Shown piece after piece: positions 985-32,678 of a stretch of 33,216 nt of DNA. The notes beneath the pieces are model-generated. The model worked only from the letters and a program-made list of their open reading frames with translations, was not told where the DNA came from and made no database searches. This stretch comes from an uncultured Spirochaetaceae bacterium. Its GTDB lineage: Bacteria; Spirochaetota; Spirochaetia; Sphaerochaetales; Sphaerochaetaceae. The stretch's first letter is position 1; every line of letters begins with the position of its first letter. The stretch covers positions 1 to 33,216 of the forward strand of contig CALXLB010000095.1 in the NCBI GenBank assembly GCA_944389085.1, read 5' to 3'. Made by a program: the position numbers and the translations under genes.

Positions 985-1378
985 TCTTGAATCTCCTGAT
1001 TCTGATTTTACGTAGTAGCCTACAAACTATGCAAGGCGTGTTATTTCTGGGTACGCTGTAGTGCCCATAGAAGGAGGGGAAATCAGACATTTCTGTCTCA
1101 CTTCCCCGTCTATTCTGGAAGTTATAAAAATCTGCCGGAAACCCATATCCTTGGTTATGGGATGTGAGGTATCCGTACTATAATAATTACTGATGGTATA
1201 TAGCGTTCAGAAGAAGCCGAAAGGTAACTACAGCATAATCAGCCACAAGCATCCTGAAAGGCTTTTTGCCCTGCTCACTCCTCGCTTTACAAGGGGCAGC
1301 ACAGCCATCAGGAAGGTTTCTTCCGCCAACCGCGAACCATCTGCAATCGCGTTCCGTCAGAAACTCGGGAAGCTCGAG
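985..1378. other. Left end and leader of the TnpB element
   Basis: This non-coding stretch lies between the DUF1016 start and the preferred tnpB start. TTAC at 1008-1011 could be the target/TAM-side tetranucleotide seen at the left of IS608-type elements. Just inside are a short hairpin (gtag...ctac, 1012-1023) and an imperfect one (gggtac...gtgccc) near 1050-1070. IS200/IS605 elements carry such subterminal hairpins. The frame upstream of the tnpB ATG stays open back to 1193, but its translation does not resemble a TnpB N-terminus. Confidence 0.35.
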
Positions 1379-2569
1379 ATGGAATACCTCTATGAGCGCA
1401 AGCAGTGCACCCTTACCGTAAAGCTCCGCAACGATGAGGATTTCGCATTCCTCAATGTCCGCATAGACATCTGCGGAGCGATATGGAATGCAGGATGCAC
1501 CATAATGCGCGAGTACTATAAGAACACCGGCAAGACGATGACGAAGGCGATGCTCTACAGCCAGCTTGGCGAGATGAGGAAGCATACGCCATCATGGCAG
1601 CTCGTGTATTCGCAGACGGTACAGCAGATAGCCGACAGGATACTCGCCGGCTACGGGCTTTTCTTCACGAATATCGAGAAGAAGAGAAACGGTGCTAAAC
1701 TGAAATGTTCTCCACCTAAATGCCATAAGATCCGGAAACAGAAGTCGATGACATTCAAACAGTATGGCAAAGGATTCCGGTTCACGGGCAATGGTGAGGT
1801 AACGATACAGGGAAGGAAGTTCAGGTATTACGATTCATATGACGGACTATTGGAACACGTGAACGTCCATACGATGACAGTGAAGAGGAACAGCCTCGGC
1901 GAGATATTCCTATACATCACATGCGCTGCCGATACCAAGGGTGAGATCTGGGGAGGCAGGGCTGCGGTGGGGATGGATTTCGGGCTGAAGCGGTTTCTGA
2001 CGCTGTCGGACGGCACGGCAATCGATTCTCCGCAGTTGTATAAGGAATACCTGAATGAGATAAGGAAGCTCAGCAGGAAGCTCTCGAGGCGGCAAGGCGG
2101 AAAACCCGGCGAGAAGTGGTCCAAGGGATATAAGAAAGCCCTTGAGGAACTGGCGAGGCTTCATCTGAAGATAGCGAACCAGCGTAAGGACTGGTTCTAC
2201 AAGCTTGCCAGGGAGCTCTGCAAGAGGTATCACACGATATGCATCGAGGACCTGAATATAAAGGCGATGCAGATGCATAAGGACTGGGGGCGCAAGGTCA
2301 GCGACCTTGCATTCTCGGAATTCGTGAAGATAGTGGAAAGCACTGCCGAGAAGTTCAGGACCACGGTCGTGAAGATCGGTACATTCTTCCAGTCGTCGAA
2401 GACATGCAGCTGCTGCGGGCATGTGCACGAGCATCTGGATCTCAAGGACAGGGTCTATGTATGTGAGGAATGCGGTTTCGCAATTGACCGCAATCTGAAT
2501 GCAGCGATAAATATCTTCAGGGAAGGACTGAGGATACTCGAAGAAGAGATGGCAGGGAAAACTGCCTGA
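1379..2569 (+). CDS. tnpB: TnpB, RNA-guided RuvC-like nuclease
   Basis: A 396-aa protein from the ATG at 1379. That start is chosen because MEYLYERKQCTLTVKLRNDED looks like the usual TnpB N-terminus and a GGGAAG precedes it; the frame stays open upstream to 1193 without family resemblance. All three RuvC catalytic acids are visible: D200 in GMDFGLKRF, E290 in ICIEDLNIK and D370 in AIDRNLNAA. A zinc finger (CSCC near 343-346, CEEC near 361-364) lies between the second and third. Family members cut DNA guided by an omega-RNA made from the right end of their own element and help retain the transposon. Length and motifs suggest an active enzyme. The zinc finger rules out the degenerate, RuvC-dead TnpB relatives. 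Confidence 0.9.
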   Translation: MEYLYERKQCTLTVKLRNDEDFAFLNVRIDICGAIWNAGCTIMREYYKNTGKTMTKAMLYSQLGEMRKHTPSWQLVYSQTVQQIADRILAGYGLFFTNIEKKRNGAKLKCSPPKCHKIRKQKSMTFKQYGKGFRFTGNGEVTIQGRKFRYYDSYDGLLEHVNVHTMTVKRNSLGEIFLYITCAADTKGEIWGGRAAVGMDFGLKRFLTLSDGTAIDSPQLYKEYLNEIRKLSRKLSRRQGGKPGEKWSKGYKKALEELARLHLKIANQRKDWFYKLARELCKRYHTICIEDLNIKAMQMHKDWGRKVSDLAFSEFVKIVESTAEKFRTTVVKIGTFFQSSKTCSCCGHVHEHLDLKDRVYVCEECGFAIDRNLNAAINIFREGLRILEEEMAGKTA

Positions 2570-17451: not shown

Positions 17452-18475
17452 AATCAGCCGACTAGCCGCCCTTTCCCTGCTTCTTAGCGCAGTTGAGATG
17501 TTCATTCCGCGCTTTGTGCCATTTTTCAAGCTTGGATTGGCGAATATTCCTCTGCTGATGGCTCTCAGCCTCGATTTAAGGCAATACATGCTGCTTGCAC
17601 TTCTCAAAGGCCTGGGAACAAGTCTTACATCAGGAAACCTCTTTTCCGTCTTTGCCCTGATATCCATCTCACAGTCGCTCTTATCCGCAGTCTGTATGAA
17701 AGGAGTCAAAACGCTCTTCAGAAATCATATCTCAATATATGGAATCTCCATAGCAGGCGCCGCTATCAGCTCCATCACGCAGATTGCACTGGCTTCCATA
17801 TATGCTGGAAAAGGCACTCTTGCATTCCTTCCTATCATATTAGCGCTTTCCTTTCCCTCCTCCATTCTTACTGCATATCTTTCGAAGAAAATACCGGAAC
17901 CCAGATACAGTGCAGAAGCCACCAGAGAAGAAAAGACCGATAGATGTATCATCATACTCCTCATCCTCTCTGGCATTGCAATCATGATGACAGAAAGCAT
18001 TGTACTGCTTCTTCCATCGGTCACAGCAGCATTCCTGCTGCAGAAAAAAGCTGGACGGAAAATCATCATCCGCCCCCATATATTCATGATCCTTTTCATG
18101 CTCATCTCATCGCTGCTGACACCTCATGGCAGAATCATAGCAAGAATCTTCTCATATCCGATTACTGAAGGTTCTCTCCTCGATGGGCTTTCCAAAGGTC
18201 TCAGGTTATCCGGAGGTATCGCGCTCTCACAAGCCTTCTCCGTGTTTATCAAGCCAGGAGAAGGAATTATCGGAAAAACAGTTGCCACCTTCACCATGCT
18301 TTTAACAGCCTTCAGGGCTTCAACTGGATCTCTCTGGCAGAGATTCCTCGCTGCGCTTAATACAGATGCAGCGTCAAAAACCTCAAAACAGGCAATTAAT
18401 ATTCCATTTTTCACATTATTTACCGTTTCTCTGCTGATTATTGCATTATGTATTATTGATTGCGTCTTTTTCTGA
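17435..18475 (+). CDS. Gx transporter family protein with an extra C-terminal membrane domain
   Basis: A 346-aa integral membrane protein. Residues 1 to about 165 are a Gx transporter (older name: heptaprenyl diphosphate synthase component I), recognisable from LAALSLLLSAVEMFIP, FKLGLANIPLLM, GTSLTSGNLFS and later glycine-rich helices. Family members are usually 160-220 aa. Here a further 150 residues follow, including SSLLTPHGRII, ITEGSLLDGLSKGLRLSGGIALSQ and KPGEGIIGK, which look like an EcfT/CbiQ-related or separately encoded partner protein fused on; this part is an inference. The start at 17435 has AGGGAG upstream and overlaps the NusG-II gene. A membrane uptake role is likely, substrate unknown. 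Confidence 0.75.
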   Translation: MRSQDRISRLAALSLLLSAVEMFIPRFVPFFKLGLANIPLLMALSLDLRQYMLLALLKGLGTSLTSGNLFSVFALISISQSLLSAVCMKGVKTLFRNHISIYGISIAGAAISSITQIALASIYAGKGTLAFLPIILALSFPSSILTAYLSKKIPEPRYSAEATREEKTDRCIIILLILSGIAIMMTESIVLLLPSVTAAFLLQKKAGRKIIIRPHIFMILFMLISSLLTPHGRIIARIFSYPITEGSLLDGLSKGLRLSGGIALSQAFSVFIKPGEGIIGKTVATFTMLLTAFRASTGSLWQRFLAALNTDAASKTSKQAINIPFFTLFTVSLLIIALCIIDCVFF

Positions 18476-18505
18476 AAGCATATACAGTTATTTTTGTCAG
18501 GCAGA

Positions 18506-18534
18506 TTGACACTCGATGCTGTTTTTACTATAAA
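18506..18534 (+). promoter_or_regulatory. Strong sigma-70-type promoter of adhE
   Basis: TTGACA (18506-18511), a 17-bp spacer and TATAAA (18529-18534), giving a start near 18541 and a leader of about 20 nt to the adhE ATG. A short inverted pair TGTCA (18495-18499) and TGACA (18507-18511) overlaps the -35 and might bind a regulator. No clear Rex-like site was seen. Confidence 0.75.
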
Positions 18535-18561
18535 TCTTTATCGATAAGAAAGGAGCAATTT

Positions 18562-21219
18562 ATGGCAGAAGTCAATGAACTTTTTCCTGGACAGCTTGAA
18601 CTCCAGGAGATGATCGAGAGAACAAAACGTGCCCAGCTTATCTTTGCAAACTATCCGCAGGAGAAGGTTGATGAAATCTTCCGCGCAGCAGCAATCGCAG
18701 CTAACAATGCACGTATCCAGCTTGCTATCGATGCAGTCGAAGAAACAGGCATGGGAATCATCGAAGACAAGGTCATCAAGAACCACTTTGCAGCAGAGTA
18801 TATCTTCCACAAATATAAGGATGAGAAAACCTGCGGCATTATTGAGCACGACAAAGCTTTCGGTATCGAGAAGATTGCAGAGCCTAAGGGAGTCATCTGC
18901 GGAATCATTCCTACAACAAACCCGACTTCTACAGCCATCTTCAAGTCGCTCATTTCGCTCAAGACAAGAAATGCAATCATCTTCTCACCACATCCTAGAG
19001 CAAAGAAATGCACTTGTGATGCAGCCAGGATTGTCCGCGATGCGGCAATTGCAGCAGGAGCCCCAGAGGATATCATCTCCTTCATTGAAGAACCTACAAT
19101 GGAGAAGACAGACTACCTGATGAAGCATCCGCTTGTTAACCTCATTCTGGCAACAGGTGGTCCGGGAATGGTCAAATCAGCATACTCTTCCGGAAAGCCA
19201 GCTATCGGTGTAGGTGCAGGCAACACCCCTGCTCTTCTTGATAAGAACTGCAATATCAAGATGGCAGTTGCCTCCATCCTCATGTCCAAGACATTCGACA
19301 ATGGTGTTGTATGTGCTTCCGAGCAGTGTGTGATTGTACACAAGGATATCTATTCAGAGGTAAAGAAGGAATTCAAGGAACAAGGTGCACATTTCCTCAC
19401 AAAAGAAGAACTTGCACTTCTTGAACCGATTATCCTTGATCCAAAGAGAGGATCTGTCAACCCGAAGATTGTCGGTCAGCCGGCTTTCAAGATTGCAGAA
19501 ATCGCAGGATTCAAGGTTCCAGAATCAACAAAAGTACTTATCGGAGAGGTAAAGAGAGTCGCTGCAGATGAGGCATTTGCACATGAAAAGCTCTCCCCTG
19601 TCCTTGGCATGTATTCATGCAACAACTTCGGTGAAGGTGCCGCAATGGCAGCAGACCTCATCGCTCTTGGCGGTTTCGGTCATACATCCGTTCTCTACTG
19701 TGATGAGAAAGAACAGGACAAGATCGATGCATATGGCAAGGCAGTGAAAACAAGCAGAATCCTCATCAACATGCCAGCTTCCCAGGGCGCTATCGGTGAT
19801 ATCTACAACTTCCGCCTTGAGCCATCCCTCACACTTGGCTGCGGCAGCTGGGGAAACAACTCAATCTCCGAAAACGTTGGTCCGAAGCATCTTCTCAACG
19901 TAAAGACAGTAGCAGAAAGGAGGGAAAACATGCTCTGGTTCAAGCTTCCGCCTAAGATCTATTTCAAATATGGCTGTCTGCCTGTCGCTCTTCAGGAGCT
20001 TGAGAATAAGAAGAGAGCATTCATCGTCACAGATAGCTTCCTCTTCTCCTCCGGCATGATCGATCGCATCACCGATACACTCAACCAGCTCGGTGTTGAG
20101 ACGGAAGTATTCCATCAGGTCAAGCCAGACCCGACACTTTCTACTATCAATGTGGCTATGGAGCTCATCAACGCTTACAAGCCTGATGTATTCATTGCTG
20201 TCGGAGGTGGTTCTCCAATGGATGCAGCAAAGATCATGTGGCTTCTCTACGAGCACCCAGAAGTGAAATTCGAAGGCCTTGCACTGAGATTTATGGATAT
20301 CAGGAAGAGAATCTATGCATTCCCGAATATGGGAAAGAAGGCAGAACTCGTCTGTATCCCGACAACATCCGGTACAGGATCTGAAGTCACGCCATTTGCC
20401 ATCATCACAGATGACAAGACAGGTATGAAGTGGGCTATCTCAGACTATGCACTCACTCCATCAATGGCTATCGTTGACAGCGAGCTTGCTATCGGACAGC
20501 CAAAAGGACTCACAGCTTCCTGCGGTATCGATGTCCTCACACATGCTCTCGAGTCACTTGTCTCATCCATGTGCACAGATTACACAGCTCCTCTTTCACT
20601 TGAAGCTGCCAGAATCATCTTCAAGTACCTGCCACGAGCATATCAGGATGGAACAGATAAGAAAGCAAGAGAAAAAGTCCATGATGCAGCAACAATGGCC
20701 GGTATGGCATTTGCAAATGCCTTCCTTGGAGTCTGCCACTCAATGGCACACAAGCTCGGTGCAGCATTCCATGTACCACACGGAATGGCAAATGCTCTGC
20801 TCCTGTCCAACGTCATCCGCTTCAATGCCAATGACACACCGACAAAGCAGGCTGCATTCCCTCAGTACGAATATCCATCAGCAATCAGCCGCTATGCACG
20901 TGCTGCTGACTACATCTCAATGGCTGTCAATGACACAAAGAACACAGATTTCTTTGTAACGACTCCTAAGATGAGCATGGAAGAGAAAGTACAGGCTCTC
21001 ATTGATGGAATCGAGAACCTCAAGAAGGCAGTTGGAATTCCAGCATCCATCAAGGAATGGGGAGTTGATGAGGAAGAGTTCCTCGCACAGGTTGATGACC
21101 TTTCTGTAAAGGCATTCGATGACCAGTGCACAGGTTCCAACCCACGCTACCCTCTCATCAGCCAGATCAAGCAGCTCTATCTCGACTGCTACTATGGCAG
21201 GGAATGGAAGGAAAACTGA
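18562..21219 (+). CDS. adhE: Bifunctional aldehyde/alcohol dehydrogenase AdhE
   Basis: An 885-aa fusion enzyme: an N-terminal CoA-acylating aldehyde dehydrogenase (about 1-430, catalytic C251 in FDNGVVCASEQ, nucleotide loop GAGNTPAL) and a C-terminal iron-dependent alcohol dehydrogenase (about 450-885; GGGSPMDAAK for NAD, metal-binding HSMAHKLGAAFHVPHG). It reduces acetyl-CoA through acetaldehyde to ethanol, reoxidising NADH; homologues form spirosomes. The length equals that of E. coli AdhE. The start at 18562 is set by AAAGGAG and conservation; the upstream frame extension is spurious. It has its own strong promoter and terminator. Codon choice looks restricted, as in highly expressed genes. 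It could also reduce aldehydes made by the nearby GRE, as an inference only. Confidence 0.98.
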   Translation: MAEVNELFPGQLELQEMIERTKRAQLIFANYPQEKVDEIFRAAAIAANNARIQLAIDAVEETGMGIIEDKVIKNHFAAEYIFHKYKDEKTCGIIEHDKAFGIEKIAEPKGVICGIIPTTNPTSTAIFKSLISLKTRNAIIFSPHPRAKKCTCDAARIVRDAAIAAGAPEDIISFIEEPTMEKTDYLMKHPLVNLILATGGPGMVKSAYSSGKPAIGVGAGNTPALLDKNCNIKMAVASILMSKTFDNGVVCASEQCVIVHKDIYSEVKKEFKEQGAHFLTKEELALLEPIILDPKRGSVNPKIVGQPAFKIAEIAGFKVPESTKVLIGEVKRVAADEAFAHEKLSPVLGMYSCNNFGEGAAMAADLIALGGFGHTSVLYCDEKEQDKIDAYGKAVKTSRILINMPASQGAIGDIYNFRLEPSLTLGCGSWGNNSISENVGPKHLLNVKTVAERRENMLWFKLPPKIYFKYGCLPVALQELENKKRAFIVTDSFLFSSGMIDRITDTLNQLGVETEVFHQVKPDPTLSTINVAMELINAYKPDVFIAVGGGSPMDAAKIMWLLYEHPEVKFEGLALRFMDIRKRIYAFPNMGKKAELVCIPTTSGTGSEVTPFAIITDDKTGMKWAISDYALTPSMAIVDSELAIGQPKGLTASCGIDVLTHALESLVSSMCTDYTAPLSLEAARIIFKYLPRAYQDGTDKKAREKVHDAATMAGMAFANAFLGVCHSMAHKLGAAFHVPHGMANALLLSNVIRFNANDTPTKQAAFPQYEYPSAISRYARAADYISMAVNDTKNTDFFVTTPKMSMEEKVQALIDGIENLKKAVGIPASIKEWGVDEEEFLAQVDDLSVKAFDDQCTGSNPRYPLISQIKQLYLDCYYGREWKEN

Positions 21220-21941: not shown

Positions 21942-21957
21942 ACATTAACGTTAATGT
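21942..21957. promoter_or_regulatory. LacI-type operator O1
   Basis: A 16-bp perfect palindrome, ACATTAACGTTAATGT, with a central CG typical of LacI-family operators. It is identical to the core of the site at 26045-26060. Its place over the transcription start, about 95 bp upstream of lacI, implies autoregulation. Confidence 0.8.
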
Positions 21958-22049: not shown

Positions 22050-23060
22050 ATGAGAGAAAATGGAAAGCGGCGAATAGTCAGGCTGAAGGACATTGCAGAT
22101 AAAACTGGTTACAGTATAAACACTATTTCGCATGCCCTTCGAGGCATGAATGACATAAGCGAAGAGACGAAAAGCTATATTCTTAAGACTGCGTCAGAAC
22201 TAGGTTATGTCACGAATTCAATCGCACAGTCCATGCGGCTTGGATATACTAAGACTATCGCCGTTATTCTTGGAGATATCTCCAATCCTCATTTTGCTAT
22301 ACTCACAAAAGAAATAGAGAACACAGCCAGCAAACATGGATACTCTGTATTCCTCTTGAATACGAATGAAGACGAAGACCAGGAAGAAAGAGCACTTAAA
22401 ACAGCCATCCAGCACAATGTCGATGGAATCATTCTCTGTCCCGTCCAGCGAAGCGAGAAGAATGTCAGGTTCTTGCAGAAATCAGACATACCATTCGTAT
22501 TAATCGGAAGATATTTCCCTGAGATGGATGGTGTAAGATATACAATCTGCAATGATGTGCGAGGAGGATATTCAGCAACAGAATATCTTATCAGGCACGG
22601 CCATAGGAAAATCCTGATGCTCAGCGGTCCAGCACACATCTCTTCTGCAAAAGAACGTTTACAAGGATACAGACAGGCACTTGCAGATTATAGAATCGAG
22701 TATGATGATTCGCTTGTGATAGAAGTACCGATTATGGAAACAGATTGCAGTACTCTGCTTCCTGAGGATGGATACACCGCGATTTTCGCTTTCAGTGACA
22801 TCGTGGCCTGGTCGGCATGGAAAGTGCTGAGAGAGAGGGGAAAAAGAGTCCCTGAGGACATCTCCATAATAGGATTTGACCATATTCAGTCAAGACTATC
22901 GCTACCCTATTCACTGTGTTCTGTTTCTTCATACAAAGCGAAAATGTCAATAACATCAGTTGAGATGCTTATTTCCATAATCAATGGAAACAAAGAGATG
23001 GAAAACATCATCATCGATACAGACATAGCAAAAGGAGAATCTGTTTCTTTCATCAGCTGA
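22050..23060 (+). CDS. LacI-family transcriptional regulator
   Basis: A 336-aa protein: an N-terminal HTH (about 9-35; RLKDIADKTGYSINTISHALRG, listed here over 11-32) with the hinge-helix region, then a periplasmic-binding-protein-like effector domain starting ILGDISNPHFA with VDGIILCPV and ISIIGFDHIQS as usual blocks. It should bind a sugar or sugar derivative and repress at O1 and O2. ATG 22050 lacks a close ribosome site; AAAGGAGGG lies 20 nt upstream, next to a 7-codon GTG frame whose TGA overlaps the ATG, so coupled initiation is possible. It is the first gene of an operon with the GRE activase and GRE. Confidence 0.93.
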   Translation: MRENGKRRIVRLKDIADKTGYSINTISHALRGMNDISEETKSYILKTASELGYVTNSIAQSMRLGYTKTIAVILGDISNPHFAILTKEIENTASKHGYSVFLLNTNEDEDQEERALKTAIQHNVDGIILCPVQRSEKNVRFLQKSDIPFVLIGRYFPEMDGVRYTICNDVRGGYSATEYLIRHGHRKILMLSGPAHISSAKERLQGYRQALADYRIEYDDSLVIEVPIMETDCSTLLPEDGYTAIFAFSDIVAWSAWKVLRERGKRVPEDISIIGFDHIQSRLSLPYSLCSVSSYKAKMSITSVEMLISIINGNKEMENIIIDTDIAKGESVSFIS

Positions 23061-23070
23061 TTTCTGAATT

Positions 23071-23922
23071 ATGAAATCGGGAATCATCTTTGATATCAAG
23101 CAATTTGCTGTTTTTGACGGCCCAGGTATGAGAGAAACCATATTTCTGAAAGGCTGTCCGCTGCATTGTCCCTGGTGCCATAATCCAGAAGGCCAGATAG
23201 CAGATCCTATGCTCATGGTGTCATATGCAGCCTGTATCCACTGTGAAAGATGCTCTGCAGTATGCCCTTCCCCTGATGACTGCATTCTCTGCGGACGCTG
23301 CATTCCAGAATGTCCGCTTGGTCTGAGACGCATTGCAGGAGAAGTGATAACTGCCCAGGAACTCGAGAAACGAATACGGAAAGATATAGATATATACAAA
23401 GAAAACGGAGGCGGAATAACCCTGAGCGGTGGAGAGCCTCTGATGCAGCATGATTTCATAATCGAGTTCCTGGACCGTATACCGGACATCCACAAAGCAA
23501 TCGAGACAAGCGGATATGCCTCTCCTGAAGTATACGATGCTGTATACAGCCGTCTGGATCTCATAATCCAGGATATCAAGATATTCGATACCCATGAGCA
23601 TGAGAGAATCATTGGTGCTGACAATACCATGATTCTGCGAAATGCAGAGAAACTTAAGCATGGTGATAAACCATTCATAATAAGAATCCCACTCATCCCA
23701 GGCATTACAGATACGGAAAAGAACTACTCCCAGATTTCATCATTCCTTCAGGGAAGCAGGAATCTCATGCGCGTGGAGCTTTTGCCATATGTGAAAGCTG
23801 CTGGAGCAAAGTATCAGATGGTGGGACGGAAATATGAACCAGTATTTTTCAATCCAGAACAGGATCCTGTGATAAACACGGAAATCTTCGAGAAAAGGAA
23901 TATGAGGTGCATTGTACTATGA
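23071..23922 (+). CDS. Glycyl radical enzyme activating enzyme (radical SAM)
   Basis: A 283-aa activase. The radical SAM cluster site is C29-C33-C36 (GCPLHCPWCHNPEG), preceded by FDGPGMRETIFLKG. An inserted ferredoxin-like region carries eight cysteines (C55, C58, C61, C65 and C71, C74, C77, C81), giving two extra [4Fe-4S] clusters, as in activases of eliminase-type GREs and unlike the short PflA. The SAM-binding GGE motif appears as LSGGEPLMQ. It uses SAM cleavage to form the glycyl radical on the adjacent enzyme. It starts 10 bp after lacI and overlaps the GRE start (ATGA), so stoichiometry is probably set by coupling. Oxygen-sensitive, hence anaerobic expression is expected. Confidence 0.95.
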   Translation: MKSGIIFDIKQFAVFDGPGMRETIFLKGCPLHCPWCHNPEGQIADPMLMVSYAACIHCERCSAVCPSPDDCILCGRCIPECPLGLRRIAGEVITAQELEKRIRKDIDIYKENGGGITLSGGEPLMQHDFIIEFLDRIPDIHKAIETSGYASPEVYDAVYSRLDLIIQDIKIFDTHEHERIIGADNTMILRNAEKLKHGDKPFIIRIPLIPGITDTEKNYSQISSFLQGSRNLMRVELLPYVKAAGAKYQMVGRKYEPVFFNPEQDPVINTEIFEKRNMRCIVL

Positions 23923-25982
23923 TGACTGAAAGAATTAAGGAAATGAAAAAATTCTTCGTAACTGACAAGAGACAGAAGGAATCCTGGCAGAATAAAACAG
24001 ATCAATATGCACTCGCTAGAACGATGACAGGCAAGAGCGATATAGACAGAGCCGCTATCCGCCTCAAGTTCGTCCTTGATAACGAGACTCCTGTAGTGTA
24101 TCCATTTGAGAAAATCGCTTTCACCAGAACGATACAGACAATTCCTGAATTATTCACAGAAGAGGAAATGCAGGAACTCTCAAGCAAGTTCCATATCCAT
24201 GAGAAAGGAGATGTCTGCAACATCAATGTAGACTACAGCATACTGATGAAAGCAGGATTCGCAGGAACTAAGCAAAAGCTTGAAGCCCTGATCAGCAATT
24301 CATCAGATGAGAGAAAAAAACATTACTGGTCGCTGCAGATAGACATTCTGGATAGTGTTCTCTCGCTTATGAAACGATATGTGAAGAAAGCTGAAGAAAC
24401 AAACAACATAACGGTCAGAGACACAATTGAATATCTTCTTGAAAAACCACCTGTCACCCTTCTTCAGGCAATGCAGATGTTCAGGATCATCCATTTCACC
24501 ATGTGGGCTGGAAGAAATTATCATAACACAATCGGACGCTTTGATCAGCTTTTCTATCCTGATTACAAACATGATCTGGACTGCGGAGTGCTGCATGACA
24601 GCAGCACGCTTGAGCTTGTAGAAGAATTCTGCCTCTCCTTCAACAGGGATAGCGATCTATATCCAGGCATGCAGCAAGGAGACAATGGGCAAAGCCTTGT
24701 ACTTGGTGGTTATGACCTCGATGGCAATGACATGTATAATGAATTCTCTGATATCGCCATGCAAGCCAGTCTTGACCTGCATCTCATTGATCCTAAAATC
24801 AATCTCCGTGTAAATAGCAAGACACCGCTTGACCGCTACATCCTCGGGACCCATATGACAAAGCAAGGTCTTGGTTTCCCACAATACTCCAATGATGATG
24901 TCGTTGTAAAAGGGCTTATAGACCTCGGATACAGACCAGAAGATGCCATCAACTATGTTGTAGCTGCATGCTGGGAATTCATCATCCCCGGGAAAGCTAT
25001 GGATATTCCGAACATAGCAGCATTCAGTTTCGCAGAATCAATCAGAAAAAACACGATTGAAAATCTTAGCAATGTAAAGTCTTTCAAGGAGTTTCTGAAT
25101 CTCGTAGATATGCAGATCAACAAAGATGCCAATGCATTGCTTGATTCTATTAAGGAAGTATATATTTTCCCAGCTCCATTCATTACGCTTATGATAGATG
25201 GCGCTGTAGAAAAAGCAAAAGATATCTCATTAGGAGCAGACTATAATAACTACGGCATCCACGGCACTGGAATCGCTACTGCAGTCGACTCTCTTGCAGA
25301 GATAAAAGAACATGTCTTTGATAAAAAAGATATAACTGCGGAAGAACTTATCAAAGGACTGGAAACCAATTTCGAAAGCAATGAGCGTATGGGAAACATA
25401 CTCAGGTACGATAAAGAGAAACTGGGGAATGACACAGAATCCACAAATACTCTGGCAGCTCATATCCTTTCAACATTTGCTGCAGCATTGAAAGAACGTA
25501 AAAACGAACGTGACGGCATATACAGACCAGGAACAGGTTCTGCAATGTATTACATATGGCATTCAGCAGAATTAGGCGCTACTCCTGACGGAAGGAAGAA
25601 AGGTGAAGTCATACCTGCAAATTATTCCCCTTCTCTTTTTTCCAGAGTCGATGGACCTGTATCTATAATCAAATCATTCGCCTATCCGGATTTAACAAAA
25701 GTCATAAACGGAGGCCCCCTGACAATTGAAATTCACGACACTGTTTTCCGTAACGATGAAAGCATCGAGAAGGTTGCCAGGCTGATTAAAACCTATATCG
25801 ATTTAGGAGGGCATCAGCTTCAAATCAATACTGTAAATAGAGACACCCTTCTAGATGCACAGAAACATCCAGAGAATTACAGGAATCTCATTGTCCGTGT
25901 CTGGGGGTGGAGCGGTTACTTTGTCGAACTCGACAAGTGCTATCAGGACCACATAATAGCAAGAATAGAGCTGGCAGTATGA
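23919..25982 (+). CDS. Glycyl radical enzyme of unassigned substrate
   Basis: A 687-aa pyruvate formate-lyase-like protein, shorter than PFL (about 760) and most dehydratase GREs (about 780-850). The thiyl cysteine is C351 in AACWEF, with E353 two residues on, the C-x-E pattern of GRE eliminases and decarboxylases, not the CC of PFL. The C-terminal glycyl loop is R660-V-W-G663-W followed by SGYFVELD. It deviates from the usual RV[CSA]GY at two positions, with Trp on both sides of the radical glycine. ATG 23919 overlaps the activase stop and has AGGAA/GAGG upstream; an in-frame GTG at 23907 is rejected. Co-regulated glycosidase and sugar importer suggest a carbohydrate-derived substrate. I cannot match it to a characterised GRE. 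Confidence 0.9.
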   Translation: MMTERIKEMKKFFVTDKRQKESWQNKTDQYALARTMTGKSDIDRAAIRLKFVLDNETPVVYPFEKIAFTRTIQTIPELFTEEEMQELSSKFHIHEKGDVCNINVDYSILMKAGFAGTKQKLEALISNSSDERKKHYWSLQIDILDSVLSLMKRYVKKAEETNNITVRDTIEYLLEKPPVTLLQAMQMFRIIHFTMWAGRNYHNTIGRFDQLFYPDYKHDLDCGVLHDSSTLELVEEFCLSFNRDSDLYPGMQQGDNGQSLVLGGYDLDGNDMYNEFSDIAMQASLDLHLIDPKINLRVNSKTPLDRYILGTHMTKQGLGFPQYSNDDVVVKGLIDLGYRPEDAINYVVAACWEFIIPGKAMDIPNIAAFSFAESIRKNTIENLSNVKSFKEFLNLVDMQINKDANALLDSIKEVYIFPAPFITLMIDGAVEKAKDISLGADYNNYGIHGTGIATAVDSLAEIKEHVFDKKDITAEELIKGLETNFESNERMGNILRYDKEKLGNDTESTNTLAAHILSTFAAALKERKNERDGIYRPGTGSAMYYIWHSAELGATPDGRKKGEVIPANYSPSLFSRVDGPVSIIKSFAYPDLTKVINGGPLTIEIHDTVFRNDESIEKVARLIKTYIDLGGHQLQINTVNRDTLLDAQKHPENYRNLIVRVWGWSGYFVELDKCYQDHIIARIELAV

Positions 25983-26042: not shown

Positions 26043-26062
26043 TTACATTAACGTTAATGTAA
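26043..26062. promoter_or_regulatory. LacI-type operator O2
   Basis: A 20-bp perfect palindrome whose central 16 bp (26045-26060) are identical to O1 at 21942-21957. It lies just after the -10, 20 bp before the glycosidase ATG. The two extra matching bases on each side suggest it may bind more tightly than O1. Confidence 0.85.
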
Positions 26063-26081: not shown

Positions 26082-27812
26082 ATGAAAAGAAACCAGTTTC
26101 CAGAGTACAATGATAAACTCGTTCAGAAGGATAAAATATTCACACCAGTCAATGGCGTGACTATTGATGGTGGAATCTTCAAAACCATATTTGATAACAA
26201 TATCGGCTTTCTCAAACAGTTCAGGATTGAAGACCTCTCCTACTGGTTCGACGTCAAAGCTGGACGTGAAGCGAAAGGTAAACCATTCAGAGGACATTTT
26301 GAAGATAACCTGAAAGGACAAACTGCTTATCAGCTTCTGATGGGGGCTGGCAATGCCCTCAGATGGACTGACGATGCAGAGCTAGAAAAGCTCGTCAATG
26401 AAGTACTTGATGTAATCGAATCAACTGCAGAACCTGACGGATATTGCATGGCTATTCCTAAAAACGAATTCCCAAGAAACGAATATCCTCATTATGTGAG
26501 AATATGGCTTACGTATGGCCTCATTGCCTCCTATCTTTCCGGGCATGACAGAGCCCTTGACATCCTCGGAAGATGGGAAAACTGGTTCAATTCATCCAGA
26601 GAGCTTCCTATCATCAAATATCTTGAACTCGCCTATCAGGGGATTGTTGCTTCTACAGCAGCATATATGACACCGATTGGAAGTGAAAAGGATCTGGAAA
26701 CAGTAGAAAAATACTATGAAGAAGACTGGCGTCTTGCACAGTTCTCCAGAGAAGAAAAGGACTGTGTTCAGACAAGGTTCCAGCCTGGACAGGAACCTCA
26801 TCCACATGGCAGCGAACTTGAAAGCCTTGAGGGATACCTCGATATGTTCAGAGCAACAGGTGCATATTACTATCTGGATGCCGTACTGGGTGCTGTGGAT
26901 ATGTACAGAAAGCATTGGCAGCATGTAGGCGGTGGTATTGTCATGTGTGAATTCCTGAAAGCAACTGAAGGCTGCAATACCCTCGATCCAAGAAGACCTT
27001 ACAACGAATTATGCTGCTCCTCTTTCTGGCTTCATATCTTCCAGCGCCTGCACAGGCTTTTCCCAGATAATGAATACTATGTCTCAGAAATCGAGAAATC
27101 ACTCTACAATGTTGCATTCGCAGATCAGGATGGAGAGGAAAGCATAAGATACTTTGCAGTTCTTGAAGGTACAAAGGTAAAGGGACAGGTTAACAGCTGC
27201 TGTACTGGTGTGGGAACAAGGATATTCGGATCTTTGCCTGAATACATATTCAGCATCTCCCCTTGCGATGTTTATGTCGATCTTTTCGCTTCCGCAACGC
27301 TTCACTATGGAGAGACAGCTCTGATTTCAATGAAAACAGACATGCCTTACTCAGGAGACGTGAAGATCAGTATAAAGAACGTCTCAAAACCATTTAAAAT
27401 GCATATCCGCATTCCGGATTGGGTTCCAGAAGCATTCGATATAGAAGGAAAAACAGTCACTCCAGGCAGCTATGCCGAATTCCAGATTGATAAAGACTGC
27501 GAGTTCAGTTTCACACTTAAGATGGAATTCAAAGTTCACTACTATAGCGGAGAAGCAGGATTCAGGAACAAGAATCGCGTCTGCTATACATATGGTCCAA
27601 TGCTCATGGCTTTTGTCGGGACTGACGATTTCCCCTACACGGGAACAACCGGAATCTCTCTTGAGGAATTCGATACAGATGACATCAGCAGCTTTGTTGA
27701 GAAGACTGAGAAGCCTCTTGTCTGGAAGGTGAAAGGCAAAGAAGCACTGCTCAAACCATATATGGATATTGTACAGGATGAAGGATTCGTCGTTTATCCA
27801 GTATGCAGATAA
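26082..27812 (+). CDS. GH127-like glycoside hydrolase (DUF1680 family)
   Basis: A 576-aa protein of the beta-L-arabinofuranosidase type: an (alpha/alpha)6-barrel region with FRGHFEDNL, LRWTDDAEL, ESLEGYLDMFRATG and HVGGGI, then a beta-rich C-terminal part. In Bifidobacterium HypBA1 the Zn site is Glu338, Cys340, Cys417 and Cys418, with a cysteine nucleophile. Here E309-L-C311 and the C373-C374 pair fall in the same order, so the metal/cysteine machinery seems kept. No signal peptide, so it acts in the cytoplasm on imported glycosides. GGAG lies five nt before ATG 26082. It is first gene of the O2-controlled operon, 14 bp before the binding-protein start. DUF1680 covers several specificities; the sugar cannot be named. 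Confidence 0.8.
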   Translation: MKRNQFPEYNDKLVQKDKIFTPVNGVTIDGGIFKTIFDNNIGFLKQFRIEDLSYWFDVKAGREAKGKPFRGHFEDNLKGQTAYQLLMGAGNALRWTDDAELEKLVNEVLDVIESTAEPDGYCMAIPKNEFPRNEYPHYVRIWLTYGLIASYLSGHDRALDILGRWENWFNSSRELPIIKYLELAYQGIVASTAAYMTPIGSEKDLETVEKYYEEDWRLAQFSREEKDCVQTRFQPGQEPHPHGSELESLEGYLDMFRATGAYYYLDAVLGAVDMYRKHWQHVGGGIVMCEFLKATEGCNTLDPRRPYNELCCSSFWLHIFQRLHRLFPDNEYYVSEIEKSLYNVAFADQDGEESIRYFAVLEGTKVKGQVNSCCTGVGTRIFGSLPEYIFSISPCDVYVDLFASATLHYGETALISMKTDMPYSGDVKISIKNVSKPFKMHIRIPDWVPEAFDIEGKTVTPGSYAEFQIDKDCEFSFTLKMEFKVHYYSGEAGFRNKNRVCYTYGPMLMAFVGTDDFPYTGTTGISLEEFDTDDISSFVEKTEKPLVWKVKGKEALLKPYMDIVQDEGFVVYPVCR

Positions 27813-27826
27813 AAGGAGGAAATCTA

Positions 27827-29125
27827 ATGAAGAAGGTACTTTGCGTTCTATGTATAATGCTGTGCGCACTGTCATCGATGTTCGCGGCCGGAAGCGCGGA
27901 GACTAAAGCCACCAGTGACCGTCCAGTGGTCAGAGTCTATTGCGGATGGGCTGAAACACAGCTTCCTAACTGGAGAGGACTTGTAGAGGAATATAACAGC
28001 AATCCTGACAACCCGATTACAATCCAGCTCGAATTCTTCGGCTCAAGCGGTTATTTCGACAGGCTTAACGCTGAATTCCTGGCAGGAGATCCACCAGAGG
28101 TATTCCAGCTTACAAAGACTGTATTCAATGAATATAGCGCAGCAGGAAGGCTCTATGATCTCCGTGACTATCTCGCTGAAACCGGCCTTAGTGAAACACT
28201 GAACAAAGGCGCTCAGGCATGGGCTGGTCCTCTTGTGAATGAAACAGGTGGAGTATATGGATTCCCAGATTTCGCAAACACAAGCTGTATTTTCTACAAC
28301 ACAAAGATGTTCGAAGAGTACGGAATTGAAGAGCCTACAGATATGGAAAGCCTCAGAGAAGCTGCCAGAATTCTCAATGAACATGGAAAGAAGGCTATTG
28401 TCACAGGTGCAAGCGACTGGTGTGCAACAGACCTTCTCTCAAAGGTCCAGGCTCAGCTCTGTGGTACAGACATCCTCATAGATGCTTATCTTGGCAATGC
28501 ACAGTACAATGATCCGATTCTCGTAGAAGCACTCACGATTGTCGACAACATGGTGAAAGAGAATATCATTGATCCATCAAGCGCAGATTACAACGATGAT
28601 GAAGCAATTGCAGAGTTCGTAAGCGGAAACGCGGGTATGTATACAGCACATACTGCTATGACAGCACCTATCGATTCAATGGCAGCAAGCATGCCTGGAT
28701 TCGAATACAACATCATCAAGAATATCGATTTCGTCGAAGATCCGCTTATCAGCGTTCCTGTAACATGGGGACAGATGTGGTGTATTCCAGCAGACTGCAA
28801 AAACCTTGACGGAGCTCTTGAAGCCCTCTCCTATCTCTTTGGTGAGTATGTTGCCAATGACACAGTTGAGAAAGTCGGAAAGATCTACAACGTTGAAAGC
28901 TGGAACAAGAACCTTACCCATCCGGCACTCAGGACAGCTGTAGATTATCAGATGCCTTCAAGTGCAACTGCTGATTCTTTCTATCTCGTTGATATGGTAT
29001 CCAGCAAGGTTCTCGAGAACCTCAACAGAGGAATCCAGCAGATGATCCAGGGAAGACTTACTCCTCAGGAGGTGCTCGACAACGCCCAGCAGACATGGGT
29101 TGATGAGCAGGCTCAGAGACAGTAA
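27827..29125 (+). CDS. ABC sugar transporter substrate-binding protein
   Basis: A 432-aa protein of the extracellular solute-binding family 1 (MalE/UgpB type). The signal peptide MKKVLCVLCIMLCALSSMFA is cut probably after AA before GSAE; the cysteines do not form a lipobox, so it should be a soluble periplasmic protein. Mature sequence shows GWAETQLPNWRGLVEEYN, PPEVFQLTK, GGVYGFPDFANTSCIFYN and FVSGNAGMYTAHTA, the usual order. ATG 27827 is set by a perfect AGGAGG (27814-27819). It binds the sugar or glycoside substrate and passes it to the two following permeases. A strong hairpin follows its stop. Confidence 0.93.
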   Translation: MKKVLCVLCIMLCALSSMFAAGSAETKATSDRPVVRVYCGWAETQLPNWRGLVEEYNSNPDNPITIQLEFFGSSGYFDRLNAEFLAGDPPEVFQLTKTVFNEYSAAGRLYDLRDYLAETGLSETLNKGAQAWAGPLVNETGGVYGFPDFANTSCIFYNTKMFEEYGIEEPTDMESLREAARILNEHGKKAIVTGASDWCATDLLSKVQAQLCGTDILIDAYLGNAQYNDPILVEALTIVDNMVKENIIDPSSADYNDDEAIAEFVSGNAGMYTAHTAMTAPIDSMAASMPGFEYNIIKNIDFVEDPLISVPVTWGQMWCIPADCKNLDGALEALSYLFGEYVANDTVEKVGKIYNVESWNKNLTHPALRTAVDYQMPSSATADSFYLVDMVSSKVLENLNRGIQQMIQGRLTPQEVLDNAQQTWVDEQAQRQ

Positions 29126-29187: not shown

Positions 29188-30090
29188 TTGAAAAGCAACA
29201 GAATAAGAGAAAATTATAGACTGAAATGGTTTGCAATTTTTCTGGTTCCAGCAATGATTATCTATACGATATTCTGGGCTGTTCCGATTTTATCTACCTT
29301 ATCATTCAGCTTCACCAACTGGTCGGGAATCACAGCATTCTCAAAAGCGGATTTCGTAGGTCTGAAGAATTTCAGGCAGATGGCCCACGATCCCATTTTC
29401 ATCCAGAGCCTCAAGAATAATTTCCAGTATGGAATCGTAATGGTAATTGCAGTTCCGCCATTGAGTTTCTTCATAGCCTATCTTCTCGATACCCATATTC
29501 CATTCAAGAAATTCTTCGGTTTTCTGGCATATATTCCAGCTATTCTCCCAACAGTTGTCGTAATGCTTCTCTGGCGCTGGATCCTCAACGCGCAATACGG
29601 GCTTGTCAACACATTCCTCAAAGCTGTAGGACTTGAGCAATTTGCAATAGGCTGGCTTTCAAATGTCGATACAGCTCTTTGGGCAGTCACATTTGTTTCC
29701 ATCTGGAAAACTGTCCCGACTTATACAATCCTTGCACTTGCTGGTTTGCAGCAGATACCTGTTGAATACAAAGAAGCTGCTATCATCGATGGCGCAAATG
29801 AATGGCAGCGGATAATACATATAATAATCCCTTCAATGCGCAGTGTATTCTACACGATATTCACGCTCGTCATCATCGATGTTTTCAGAGTGTTCGAACT
29901 TGTATACATCATGACAGAAGGCGGTCCTGGATACTATTCGACGGAAATGCTTCTGACATATATGTACAAATCCAGCTTCTCAAGTTACATGGCAGGTTAT
30001 GGTTCTGCGATTGCTACAACAACCATACTCATCGTACTTGTGATAACCGCGCTCAATCTGAAGTTTTCATCACGCTCAGAGGAGGACTGA
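29188..30090 (+). CDS. ABC sugar transporter permease 1 (MalF/UgpA type)
   Basis: A 300-aa inner-membrane permease with six predicted helices (first KWFAIFLVPAMIIYTIFWAV, here residues about 11-30). The cytoplasmic EAA loop, EYKEAAIIDGANEWQRIIHI, with its conserved glycine, contacts the ATPase. The start is TTG 29188 (MKSNRIRENY) with GGAG seven nt upstream. It is followed three bases after its stop by permease 2. It forms the heterodimeric channel with that protein. No ATPase gene is nearby, so a shared MsmX/UgpC-type ATPase elsewhere is expected. Confidence 0.93.
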   Translation: MKSNRIRENYRLKWFAIFLVPAMIIYTIFWAVPILSTLSFSFTNWSGITAFSKADFVGLKNFRQMAHDPIFIQSLKNNFQYGIVMVIAVPPLSFFIAYLLDTHIPFKKFFGFLAYIPAILPTVVVMLLWRWILNAQYGLVNTFLKAVGLEQFAIGWLSNVDTALWAVTFVSIWKTVPTYTILALAGLQQIPVEYKEAAIIDGANEWQRIIHIIIPSMRSVFYTIFTLVIIDVFRVFELVYIMTEGGPGYYSTEMLLTYMYKSSFSSYMAGYGSAIATTTILIVLVITALNLKFSSRSEED

Positions 30091-30093
30091 AAT

Positions 30094-30921
30094 ATGAAGA
30101 AGATTATAGGAAGAATGCTCATCATATTATTTCTCCTCGTACTTACCCTGCTTACATTGGCCCCGCTTATCTGGACTGTCATCTCCTCATTCAAGACAGC
30201 AGGCGAATTGATGCTGCGGCCATGGTCGATGCCTGCAACTCCCCAGTTCAAGAACTATGCAGATGCCTGGAGAATGGGAAATTTCGGAACATATTTCATG
30301 AACAGCATAATCATAACAGGATTCTCATTGCTTCTGATGATTCTGTTCTCTTCAATGGCTGCTTTCGGGCTCAGTCACTATAAGACAAAGCTCAATCATG
30401 GAGCGCTCCTCTATCTTCTCTTCGGACAGATGATAAGTGCCGCCATGGTGATTTTCCCTCTTGTCATCATTCTGCAGAAAATGAATCTAACTGATTCATA
30501 CCTTGGAATCTGTCTTGTCTACACAGCAGGAGGTATTCCATTCACGGTATTCGTACTGACCAATTTCTTCAAGACTGTACCGCAAGGACTTTTTGAAGCC
30601 GCACAGATTGATGGCTGCAGTGAAGTTAAGCAATTCGTATCAATAGCTATCCCTTTGATAAAAAGCGGTCTTGCGACAGTTTTCCTGTATCAGTTCATGT
30701 GGGTATGGAATGAATTCACAATCGGCTTCACTCTCATCAGATCGTCATCGATGAGAACACTCCCCGTTGGTCTCTATACTTCTGTCTTCGGTGTTCTGCA
30801 GACGAACTATGTCGTGGCTTTTGCTGGTACTGTGATTGTCAGCATCCCGACAGTGCTGATTTACCTGGTCTTCCAGAAATATCTTGTCAAAGGTCTCCTT
30901 GCAGGCTCAATCAAAGCCTGA
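30094..30921 (+). CDS. ABC sugar transporter permease 2 (MalG/UgpE type)
   Basis: A 275-aa permease with six helices. The N-terminal LLTLAPLIWTVISSFKT is characteristic of MalG-type proteins, and the EAA loop reads LFEAAQIDGCSEVKQFVSIA. It starts three bases after the permease 1 stop, with GGAGG about nine nt upstream, and ends the operon before a terminator. It pairs with permease 1 for uptake of the sugar bound by the upstream binding protein. The family is Carbohydrate Uptake Transporter-1, which takes oligosaccharides and glycosides, in line with a cytoplasmic glycosidase encoded in the same operon. Confidence 0.94.
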   Translation: MKKIIGRMLIILFLLVLTLLTLAPLIWTVISSFKTAGELMLRPWSMPATPQFKNYADAWRMGNFGTYFMNSIIITGFSLLLMILFSSMAAFGLSHYKTKLNHGALLYLLFGQMISAAMVIFPLVIILQKMNLTDSYLGICLVYTAGGIPFTVFVLTNFFKTVPQGLFEAAQIDGCSEVKQFVSIAIPLIKSGLATVFLYQFMWVWNEFTIGFTLIRSSSMRTLPVGLYTSVFGVLQTNYVVAFAGTVIVSIPTVLIYLVFQKYLVKGLLAGSIKA

Positions 30922-30984: not shown

Positions 30985-32601
30985 TCACACATGAAGACTT
31001 TTCCATTCTTCAATCTTTCTTGTTTCAGAAGAGAAGCTTATCCCAACCTTGTGCACTACCATCCCAGGCTTCAGCAGATAAGCATACTTTGCTGCATATC
31101 CTTTCTCTTCTATCTGCTTCAGAGCTTCATCGGCAGATTTATCAACTTTGAGTTCGAAGATCCAGATATGATCACCAGCAAAGATAACCTCATCAGCTCT
31201 CCCCATAGGTCCCCTATCCTCAGCAAATGCCTTGATAGAAGAAACTATGAAGATTGCATGGAAAATCAGATGATAGAACCTTTCCCGTTCCTTTACTGTC
31301 AGTTCATAGGAAAAAGCTGCAAAGAACTCATCAAGCTTCTCGTGCACCTTTTCTTCATCCCCTTCCCTGCATGCCGCTATAAAAGAAAGCAACCACATGC
31401 TCATGTATGCATCATCATTACCTGCATATGCATAACGGGAAACAAGATTCTGTATGAATGACACTTTAACCTCAGCATTAGGAAAACCTACTTCTTCAGA
31501 TCCCTTGAATGTCAGATAGCCTGCAAAATAGAGAAGTGCGATAACAGAGCTCCTTGACAGTACTGACGAGTTTATCTGTGAAATATCAAAAGAAGTGAAA
31601 GCTTCCTCGCTTATAAAAAGGTTTTCAGCATCAAGAAGCTCTGAGAGATTACAGCGTTTTGCCAGCTCTATAGCAAACGTAGGAACACCCGTTCTGTTCC
31701 AGTAGTTCCTGAATCTACAGTTATAAGTGAAGAACTCTCCGATAGACACAGGATTGTAGACAGTGACATCAGAGTCAGGCGAGAACCTGTAGCCATCATA
31801 ATATGCCTTTATCCTTGCCTTGAAATCATCCCTCTTCACATCGGGATGGGCTTCAACATACTCATCTATCCCTTCCCCGAAGTATTCTTCAAGCTCATCT
31901 TCCGTATACCCGAATGCAGATGCGAACTCAGGCTGCATAGAGAGATCTGTGAGATTGTTCATAGCTGAGAAGATGGAGAGATTTGAAAGCTTCACAACTC
32001 CTGTGATGAAGGAGAACCTGATCCTTGAACCGTACTTCTTTATCGTCGCATAGAATGCATTGAATTCTCTTCTTGCTGTATCCTGTATATCCTTCTCAGC
32101 GCTTCCGGATGTAAAAGGCGCATCGAACTCGTCAATCAGTATTACCACAGGCCCTTTTTCATCACTCAGCTTGATTATAAGCTCATCAAGCATTGCAGAT
32201 GGGCTATCAGAGAGGAGCTCTATCCCATTGCTCTCTGCCTGATACCGGATATATGAACGGAATACATTCAGAAACGTATCAGCAGTCCTCATGTTCATCC
32301 CGCTGAAATCGAAATGAAGGACAGGATACTTCTCGAAGGGATAATCAGTCTTTCCTATATAGAGATCCCTGAAAAGCTCCTTCCTTCCGTCGAAGATTGC
32401 ATGGAGCATCGAGCAGAAGAGAGACTTTCCATACCTGCGTGGACGCGAAACAAAGCAGAATTTCCTCTTAGGATTTCTCACTAAAGCATATGCATACATC
32501 GTCTTGTCGACGTATACGGTATCATTCCCTGTAACAAAATCCTCGAAATTGAAGGTGCCTATCGCGATTCCTTTCATGTCATCATTATAATCATTAACCA
32601 T
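30985..32601 (-). CDS. AAA-ATPase-like / PD-(D/E)XK nuclease protein
   Basis: A 538-aa two-domain protein: an N-terminal AAA-ATPase-like region (PF09820 type: IGTFNFEDF, VDKT, Walker A-like SRPRRYGKS at 52-60, Walker B ILIDEFDAPF from 154) and a C-terminal PD-(D/E)XK (DUF1703/PF08011) nuclease domain with D470, E483-L-K485 and a downstream Q496/Y502. The start at 32601 (MVNDYNDDMKG) has GGAGG six nt upstream; the longer frame to 32661 is rejected. These proteins are numerous in gut spirochaetes, Bacteroidetes and clostridia and often vary between strains; their role is unknown, with defence or mobile-element links only suspected. It is full length, and all key residues are present. It follows the DUF6884-like gene by 77 bp on the same strand. 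Confidence 0.88.
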   Translation of the reverse strand: MVNDYNDDMKGIAIGTFNFEDFVTGNDTVYVDKTMYAYALVRNPKRKFCFVSRPRRYGKSLFCSMLHAIFDGRKELFRDLYIGKTDYPFEKYPVLHFDFSGMNMRTADTFLNVFRSYIRYQAESNGIELLSDSPSAMLDELIIKLSDEKGPVVILIDEFDAPFTSGSAEKDIQDTARREFNAFYATIKKYGSRIRFSFITGVVKLSNLSIFSAMNNLTDLSMQPEFASAFGYTEDELEEYFGEGIDEYVEAHPDVKRDDFKARIKAYYDGYRFSPDSDVTVYNPVSIGEFFTYNCRFRNYWNRTGVPTFAIELAKRCNLSELLDAENLFISEEAFTSFDISQINSSVLSRSSVIALLYFAGYLTFKGSEEVGFPNAEVKVSFIQNLVSRYAYAGNDDAYMSMWLLSFIAACREGDEEKVHEKLDEFFAAFSYELTVKERERFYHLIFHAIFIVSSIKAFAEDRGPMGRADEVIFAGDHIWIFELKVDKSADEALKQIEEKGYAAKYAYLLKPGMVVHKVGISFSSETRKIEEWKSLHV

Positions 32602-32678
32602 TGGATACCTCCAATAGTTAATACGCAGAAAACCATGATTATTGTCAGGTTTTGGCTGCAAAAGGTAACAATTACTGC

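Follow-up and report, generated by a model that had tools for sequence, protein, structure and literature searches.

Glycyl radical enzymes (GREs) are oxygen-sensitive and carry out some of the most difficult anaerobic reactions in the gut; to our knowledge, most GRE families have no assigned function. The release of L-arabinose by GH127 and GH51 enzymes is established for both of these families. The nearest sugar-type GRE systems are those of E. coli PflD (1,5-anhydromannitol-6-P lyase) and YbiW (1,5-anhydroglucitol-6-P lyase), which are described as catalyzing ring-opening C-O cleavage of anhydrohexitol phosphates (PMC12441222). The window analyzed here is the whole 33,216-nucleotide stretch of contig CALXLB010000095.1 from an uncultured Spirochaetaceae bacterium, and its GRE gene encodes a tryptophan on each side of the radical glycine (Table 1). 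We found no literature linking GREs to GH127, to arabinofuranosidases or to the family that this GRE belongs to, and we know of no member of that family with a known function.

Table 1. Features of the window, in window coordinates
Feature	Position	Strand	Details
IS605 OrfB/TnpB-type protein	1193..2569	+	Cas12f1-like nuclease domain
AdhE (bifunctional acetaldehyde/alcohol dehydrogenase)	18460..21219	+	1375 bits; upstream of the GRE operon
Perfect palindrome ACATTAACGTTAATGT, candidate LacI-type operator	21942..21957		upstream of lacI-activase-GRE
LacI-family repressor	22050..23060	+	PF00356, PF00532
GRE activase (radical SAM, CxxxCxxC, ferredoxin-like 4Fe-4S motifs)	23071..23922	+	TIGR02494 266 bits (cut-off 174); CPLHCPWC
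GRE, WGW/ACWE family, 687 aa	23919..25982	+	from ATG; PF02901 and PF01228
Thiyl-radical motif A350-C351-W352-E353	24966..24977	+	invariant in 75 aligned members; codons of C351 at 24969-24971, W352 at 24972, E353 at 24975
Glycyl-radical loop R660-V-W662-G663-W664	25896..25910	+	R[VI]WGWS[GA]YF in 84/84 members; codons of R660 at 25896, W662 at 25902, G663 at 25905, W664 at 25908-25910
Second copy of ACATTAACGTTAATGT	26045..26060		between GRE and GH127, upstream of GH127-SBP-ABC
GH127-like hydrolase (beta-L-arabinofuranosidase family)	26082..27812	+	PF07944 66.9 bits (cut-off 24.9), PF20736
Solute-binding protein (SBP), carbohydrate ABC transporter	27803..29125	+	PF01547; true ATG probably a few codons downstream
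ABC sugar permease 1	29188..30090	+	PF00528
ABC sugar permease 2	30094..30921	+	PF00528
AAA-ATPase-like and PDDEXK_9 nuclease protein	30985..32661	-	directly after the operon, opposite strand

The WGW-GRE family and its catalytic residues

The activase stop codon and the GRE start codon overlap as ATGATGA, and the earliest possible start of the GRE reading frame, a GTG, would extend it to 23907..25982(+). Both GRE domains scored over their cut-offs in the translated protein, the PFL-like domain PF02901 with 270.7 bits (24.3 needed; the match begins at profile position 144) and the Gly_radical domain PF01228 with 77.9 bits (22.2 needed), and this protein was the sole Gly_radical match in its own 2.27-Mb, 87%-complete genome. 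An earlier sequence-only reading had described, without proposing a function, a 687-aa protein with an ACWE thiyl site and an RVWGW loop. The length and both motifs were confirmed in the translated frame, and the interval it gave, 24969-25910, runs exactly from the start of the C351 codon to the end of the W664 codon.

We defined the WGW-GRE family by the loop R[VI]WGWS[GA]YF, the motif ACWE, a length of about 690 aa and membership of one clade, all of which apply to the window GRE. When 395 genomes of the same class were searched with a DNA pattern for V-W-G-W-x-G-x-F, 6 gave a match, and every readable GRE in these genomes also carried ACWEF[IV]. Such a pattern needs WGW and is therefore blind to members that have lost the motif; in a tblastn-confirmed scan built on other stretches of the protein (QQGD, LGFPQY), WGW was still present in every copy. 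In that scan two peptide patterns, taken from a five-member alignment, were run on 84,980 species genomes and hit 560 encoding stretches; a locus may appear twice in this count. The best 80 of the 560 came from Spirochaetota, Bacillota, Bacteroidota and Verrucomicrobiota. The carriers include many gut and rumen bacteria, and cultured ones are, for example, Hungatella hathewayi DSM 13479, Eisenbergiella tayi DSM 26961, Parabacteroides chinchillae DSM 29073 and Diplocloster. Most readable members are 685-700 aa long (n=84).

The seven motif residues C351, W352, E353, R660, W662, G663 and W664 showed zero variation in a 75-row family alignment, so that the catalytic Cys, the loop Gly and the Arg of the GRE superfamily are all conserved, as is the Glu, and the earlier statement that C, E, R and G are kept extends to all 75 members. 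The 84 readable copies comprised 81 with RVWGWSGYF, 2 with RVWGWSAYF and 1 with RIWGWSAYF, and CWE was present in every one. None of the 51 other GREs that we collected had Trp on both sides of the radical Gly; Trp preceded it in four (L003, L145, L151 and L159) and followed it in three (L007, L138 and L143). As judged from these alignments, the WGW and ACWE motifs are a family trait and neither chance nor the oddity of one protein. The double Trp offers a natural test of the surroundings of a stable protein radical. The same comparison yielded 39 positions that are fixed within the family and rare outside it, among them N101, N203, Q322, A350, W352, N444, H448, W662 and W664; position 101 is Asn in 75/75 members and His in 40/51 other GREs. 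A remodeled active site, which had been proposed from only three residues, is thus borne out at the level of sequence by many more. Elsewhere in the alignment of the 51 other GREs, the radical-Gly column held Ala in one and the catalytic-Glu column held Trp in seven, either as real changes or as alignment slips.

WGW-GRE members scored above 1100 bits on a family HMM and the best nonmember, L003, scored 436 bits. IQ-TREE, run on 54 GREs, recovered the WGW clade with a support of 100 and grouped CutC, HypD, HpfG, E. coli PflD and YbiW in a separate clade with a support of 98; single-Trp loops occur in the wider tree neighborhood of the WGW clade. No NCBIfam GRE model came near its cut-off (at most 297 bits versus the 678 to 1150 required): the PFL2/glycerol dehydratase model TIGR01774 gave 296.7 bits against 678.2, the PflD model NF007437 249.8 against 1109, and the HypD, CutC, HpfG/HpsG, IAD and HPAD equivalogs 151 to 279 against 1000-1150. 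The proposal of a distinct subfamily stands on the clade support, the HMM gap and the failure of every named-family model. The outcome named as refuting the original observation, placement inside a well-characterized family whose members typically carry WGW and ACWE, was looked for: a family with these motifs does exist, but it is uncharacterized and lies apart from all named GREs tested. By these sequence comparisons, the assignment of the window GRE to this family is well supported, and the WGW-GREs almost certainly form a distinct and active GRE family.

An AlphaFold2 model built on the 75-row alignment had a pLDDT of 92.3 and a pTM of 0.92. Its top Foldseek match was the glycerol dehydratase 1r8w (TM 0.86 by query length), and VIA-align gave Z scores of 39.3 for PflD (rmsd 2.8), 38.7 for glycerol dehydratase and 36.8 for YbiW, which are near ties since each similar score extends over about 675 residues. 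Structure prediction, one of the checks suggested for the original observation, thereby returned a GRE barrel with a Z of about 39 to both PflD and glycerol dehydratase, and the predicted fold is a complete one despite the short N-terminal half.

Gene neighborhoods and a shared candidate operator

Neighbors were counted in 83 loci that were re-searched with representative neighbor proteins. An activase was found in 81 of the 83, and in 69 it immediately preceded the GRE in the same orientation; for L042, one of the two loci without it, the genome encodes an activase on a different contig, preceded by the same operator. The window GRE likewise has a cognate radical-SAM activase, recognized by TIGR02494. 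Because C351, E353, R660 and G663 are invariant, the activase is so widely retained and the predicted GRE fold is complete, the window GRE is most likely radical-active. A LacI homologue occurred within 10 kb in 29/83 loci, and GH127 or GH51 arabinofuranosidases were near 24/83 copies, a minority, although truncated contigs lower the count. The GH127 of the window is only distantly related to the solved GH127 enzymes.

The 31 Bacteroidota/Verrucomicrobiota loci contained a sugar symporter in 29, an aldose 1-epimerase in 13, GH51 in 11, GH127 in 10 and a GntR regulator in 11. As a control, the same queries were applied to thirty stretches from ten carrier genomes, each taken where a contig begins (415 kb versus 448 kb of GRE flank), and returned a single symporter but neither an epimerase nor GH51 nor GH127; the p-values for this enrichment are too small because the loci are phylogenetically non-independent. 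The symporter is XylE-like, its best solved match being the D-xylose-proton symporter with 254 bits versus about 143 for GLUT3. Importers in Bacillota/Spirochaetota loci are mostly monosaccharide ABC systems, accompanied by LacI regulators. A FucI/SftI-like isomerase, an FGGY or PfkB kinase, a class II aldolase, an aldo-keto reductase or DeoC is added in L030, L038, L045, L046, L060, L064, L065 and L070; in L089 and L096 the GRE is next to AraA, in L066 to XylA and XylB. A compact set in L046 consists of an ABC importer, LacI, isomerase, activase, GRE, kinase and aldolase.

Several further observations concern these neighborhoods. The FucI-like isomerase (c22) had no PDB relative by sequence, and a sulfoquinovose isomerase identity was set aside because its best NCBIfam match, 110 of 700 bits, is too weak to name it. 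In L060 and L070 the GRE is surrounded by DeoC, an FGGY kinase, an aldo-keto reductase, DUF4867 and an SMP-30-like protein; DUF4867, for which we know of no function, recurs in four loci. L064 (3501-5879) encodes a second PFL-like protein of 793 aa with the loop RIHGTFVNFL beside the WGW-GRE; kinase, aldolase and reductase genes share this neighborhood. The AdhE upstream of the window operon could use an acetaldehyde product.

The two palindromes of the window fit a 16-bp LacI-type operator pattern, ACATTAWCGWTAATGT, which precedes both the GRE operon and the GH127-transporter operon; two sites were found versus 0.11 expected with up to 3 mismatches, and in the 2.27-Mb genome they are the only sites with up to 1 mismatch. 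With W allowed at the two variable positions and a tolerance of two mismatches, 28 of the 52 Bacillota/Spirochaetota loci contained 47 sites between them, most of these sites directly before the activase gene or a lacI-activase pair, and none in the same 52 loci reversed or in a 155-kb Bacillota control. Genome-wide, with one mismatch, there were 40 sites in 25 carrier genomes (19 of the 40 carrying the mismatch) versus 6 for the reversed pattern. The LacI protein presumably binds these sites.

Some sites lay outside the GRE loci. In G248, a congener, the operator lies on another contig, 20 bp before the ATG of a GH127-SBP-ABC operon; in G407 it lies about 200 bp before a GH51 that matches alpha-L-arabinofuranosidase at 415 bits; in Hungatella it lies 15 bp before the ATG of an aldose 1-epimerase. 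Others preceded a GH36-like gene in G538 and an activase in G535. Those within the pyrD operon of two Hungatella look like chance matches, as do those of G542 and three of the four found in G535. That the operator tracks unlinked arabinofuranosidases is the strongest evidence for the substrate group, and an arabinose or pentose context for the WGW-GREs is probable.

Candidate substrates and reaction

Our main reading, to which we assign a probability of about 0.5, is that the active WGW-GRE acts on free aldopentoses, most likely L-arabinose freed by GH127 and GH51, by C-O cleavage as a lyase or dehydratase. Since nothing else catabolic recurs in the Bacteroidota loci, action of the GRE on the freed and imported pentose itself is the simplest reading. 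What we infer of substrate, reaction and later steps is as follows. A LacI-type repressor at ACATTAWCGWTAATGT would switch on the GRE together with the arabinofuranosidase and the importer. The radical-SAM activase encoded next door would make the radical on G663, from which it would move to C351; the C351 thiyl would abstract hydrogen from a carbinol carbon of the sugar, and E353 would assist loss of the neighboring C-O bond, either to a hydroxyl or to the ring oxygen as in PflD and YbiW. The deoxy-keto sugar product would then undergo reduction, phosphorylation and aldol cleavage. Some Bacillota loci have reductase, kinase and aldolase genes, which would suit such a product. Cleavage of C5-O after abstraction of C4-H, giving a 5-deoxy-4-keto pentose, is chemically sensible because a pentopyranose shares the CH2-O(ring)/CHOH edge of the 1,5-anhydrohexitols, and by this analogy the ring C5-O cut would be the nearest counterpart of the PflD and YbiW reactions; any particular regiochemistry, taken singly, is nonetheless unlikely to be the right one.

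A more ambitious form of this proposal, which we put forward tentatively, is that the WGW-GREs are the first GREs to act on free unphosphorylated sugars, as aldopentose ring-opening lyases or dehydratases that start a radical fermentation of L-arabinose without arabinose isomerase. If the proposed substrate is correct, fermentation of this major dietary-fiber sugar would gain a radical route. No AraA match was found in the window's own genome or in its congener G248, nor in 9 of 10 Bacteroidota/Verrucomicrobiota carriers; we do not take this absence as proof of a bypass, since AraA occurs in only 18 of 99 Bacteroidales anyway.

The GRE might instead act on a later intermediate, because in some Bacillota loci it is found beside isomerase, kinase and aldolase genes (L046), or beside AraA or XylA. 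In this form the enzyme would be a diol dehydratase for a small product of sugar breakdown, of the glycol, glycerol or 1,2-propanediol type, with a predicted fold as near to the glycerol/propanediol dehydratases as to PflD and with aldo-keto reductase genes also adjoining it in some of these loci. The Bacteroidota/Verrucomicrobiota loci speak against this, as the partners there are only the activase, the symporter (29/31), arabinofuranosidases, the epimerase and a regulator, with no aldolase or glycol reductase. So do the residues, the site of His164 in 1r8w being Asn in 75/75 members and that of Asp447 being Asn365, and we consider a late diol dehydratase unlikely.

A galactose- or rhamnose-type sugar is possible since GH78/GH106 rhamnosidases and GH36-like, GH38-like and GH4-like genes are also found in the context. 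The enzyme could then use a different plant-wall sugar (D-galactose, L-rhamnose or a uronic acid) or a wide range of aldoses, with the arabinofuranosidases as fellow travelers in pectin and arabinogalactan loci; GH36-like and GH38-like genes lie behind the operator, GH27/36 genes as well as the rhamnosidases lie nearby, and L031 adjoins pectin-type genes. But among the hydrolases GH127 and GH51 occur most often, the operator precedes them even where they are unlinked, the importer is XylE-like, and AraA and XylA adjoin the GRE in Bacillota, so we regard this alternative, too, as improbable.

It is very unlikely that the enzyme is a diverged PflD/YbiW ortholog acting on a phosphorylated anhydrosugar. 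PflD is its best structural match by Z, although tied with others, and those enzymes are the sugar precedent for the GRE fold (PMC12441222; PDB titles 8id0 and 8id7); yet both fall in another tree clade, the PflD model scored 250 of the 1109 bits needed, and PTS genes are not recurrent in the loci, where importers are ABC systems or proton symporters. A degenerate GRE without a radical, serving, for example, as a scaffold or regulator, would suit the bulky Trp residues that, unusually, flank the radical Gly and the short N-terminal half of the protein, but is highly improbable given the invariant catalytic residues and the activase kept in 81/83 loci.

Comparison with known systems

PflD and YbiW share with the WGW-GREs the GRE fold, the Cys/Glu/Gly set and a linked activase, and their sugar-type substrates and radical C-O cleavage provide a precedent for the chemistry proposed here. 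They differ in having an RVAGY loop, a GC[VI]E motif, a PTS, phosphorylated substrates and a length of 765-810 aa versus 687 aa, and in their separate clade. The B12-independent glycerol/propanediol dehydratase has the conserved Cys and Glu in common with the family, and 1r8w was the best Foldseek match. In the WGW-GREs, His164, Ser282 and Asp447 of 1r8w, which we take to be its substrate-site residues, are replaced by Asn101, Asn203 and Asn365, and Val434 by Trp352; neither diol pathway nor microcompartment genes were seen near WGW-GREs.

The closest relative in the tree is a Hungatella GRE with RVWGFS and SACWEP motifs (L145/L157), which is the sister of the WGW clade (support 96, long branch). 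This 671-aa protein has ACWE and a Trp before the radical Gly, but Phe after it, and it scored 315 bits on the WGW family HMM. In L157 (6474-8486, Hungatella hathewayi) the sister GRE and an activase, as judged by eye, belong to a surface-polysaccharide cluster that also encodes a flippase-like protein, a glycosyltransferase, an epimerase-like protein and a ThDP-type enzyme. Because of this location it is probably biosynthetic, which suggests a role in deoxysugar or glycan biosynthesis. Other GREs were noted as well. One in Eisenbergiella tayi (L163, 6292-8658) with an RMGGWS loop is accompanied, again by eye, by dihydroxyacetone-kinase-like subunits, aldo-keto reductases, an SMP-30-like protein and an aldehyde dehydrogenase, and is probably another sugar GRE. 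The Lachnospiraceae carriers G414, G416 and G417 have 9 to 15 PFL-like matches each, many of them short (680-770 aa), far from named families and often beside sugar transporters.

The classical AraA-AraB-AraD pathway deals with what seems to be the same sugar, and WGW-GRE loci resemble it in their importers, hydrolases and mutarotase. That pathway relies on the isomerase AraA, whereas the GRE would bring different chemistry to the same sugar.
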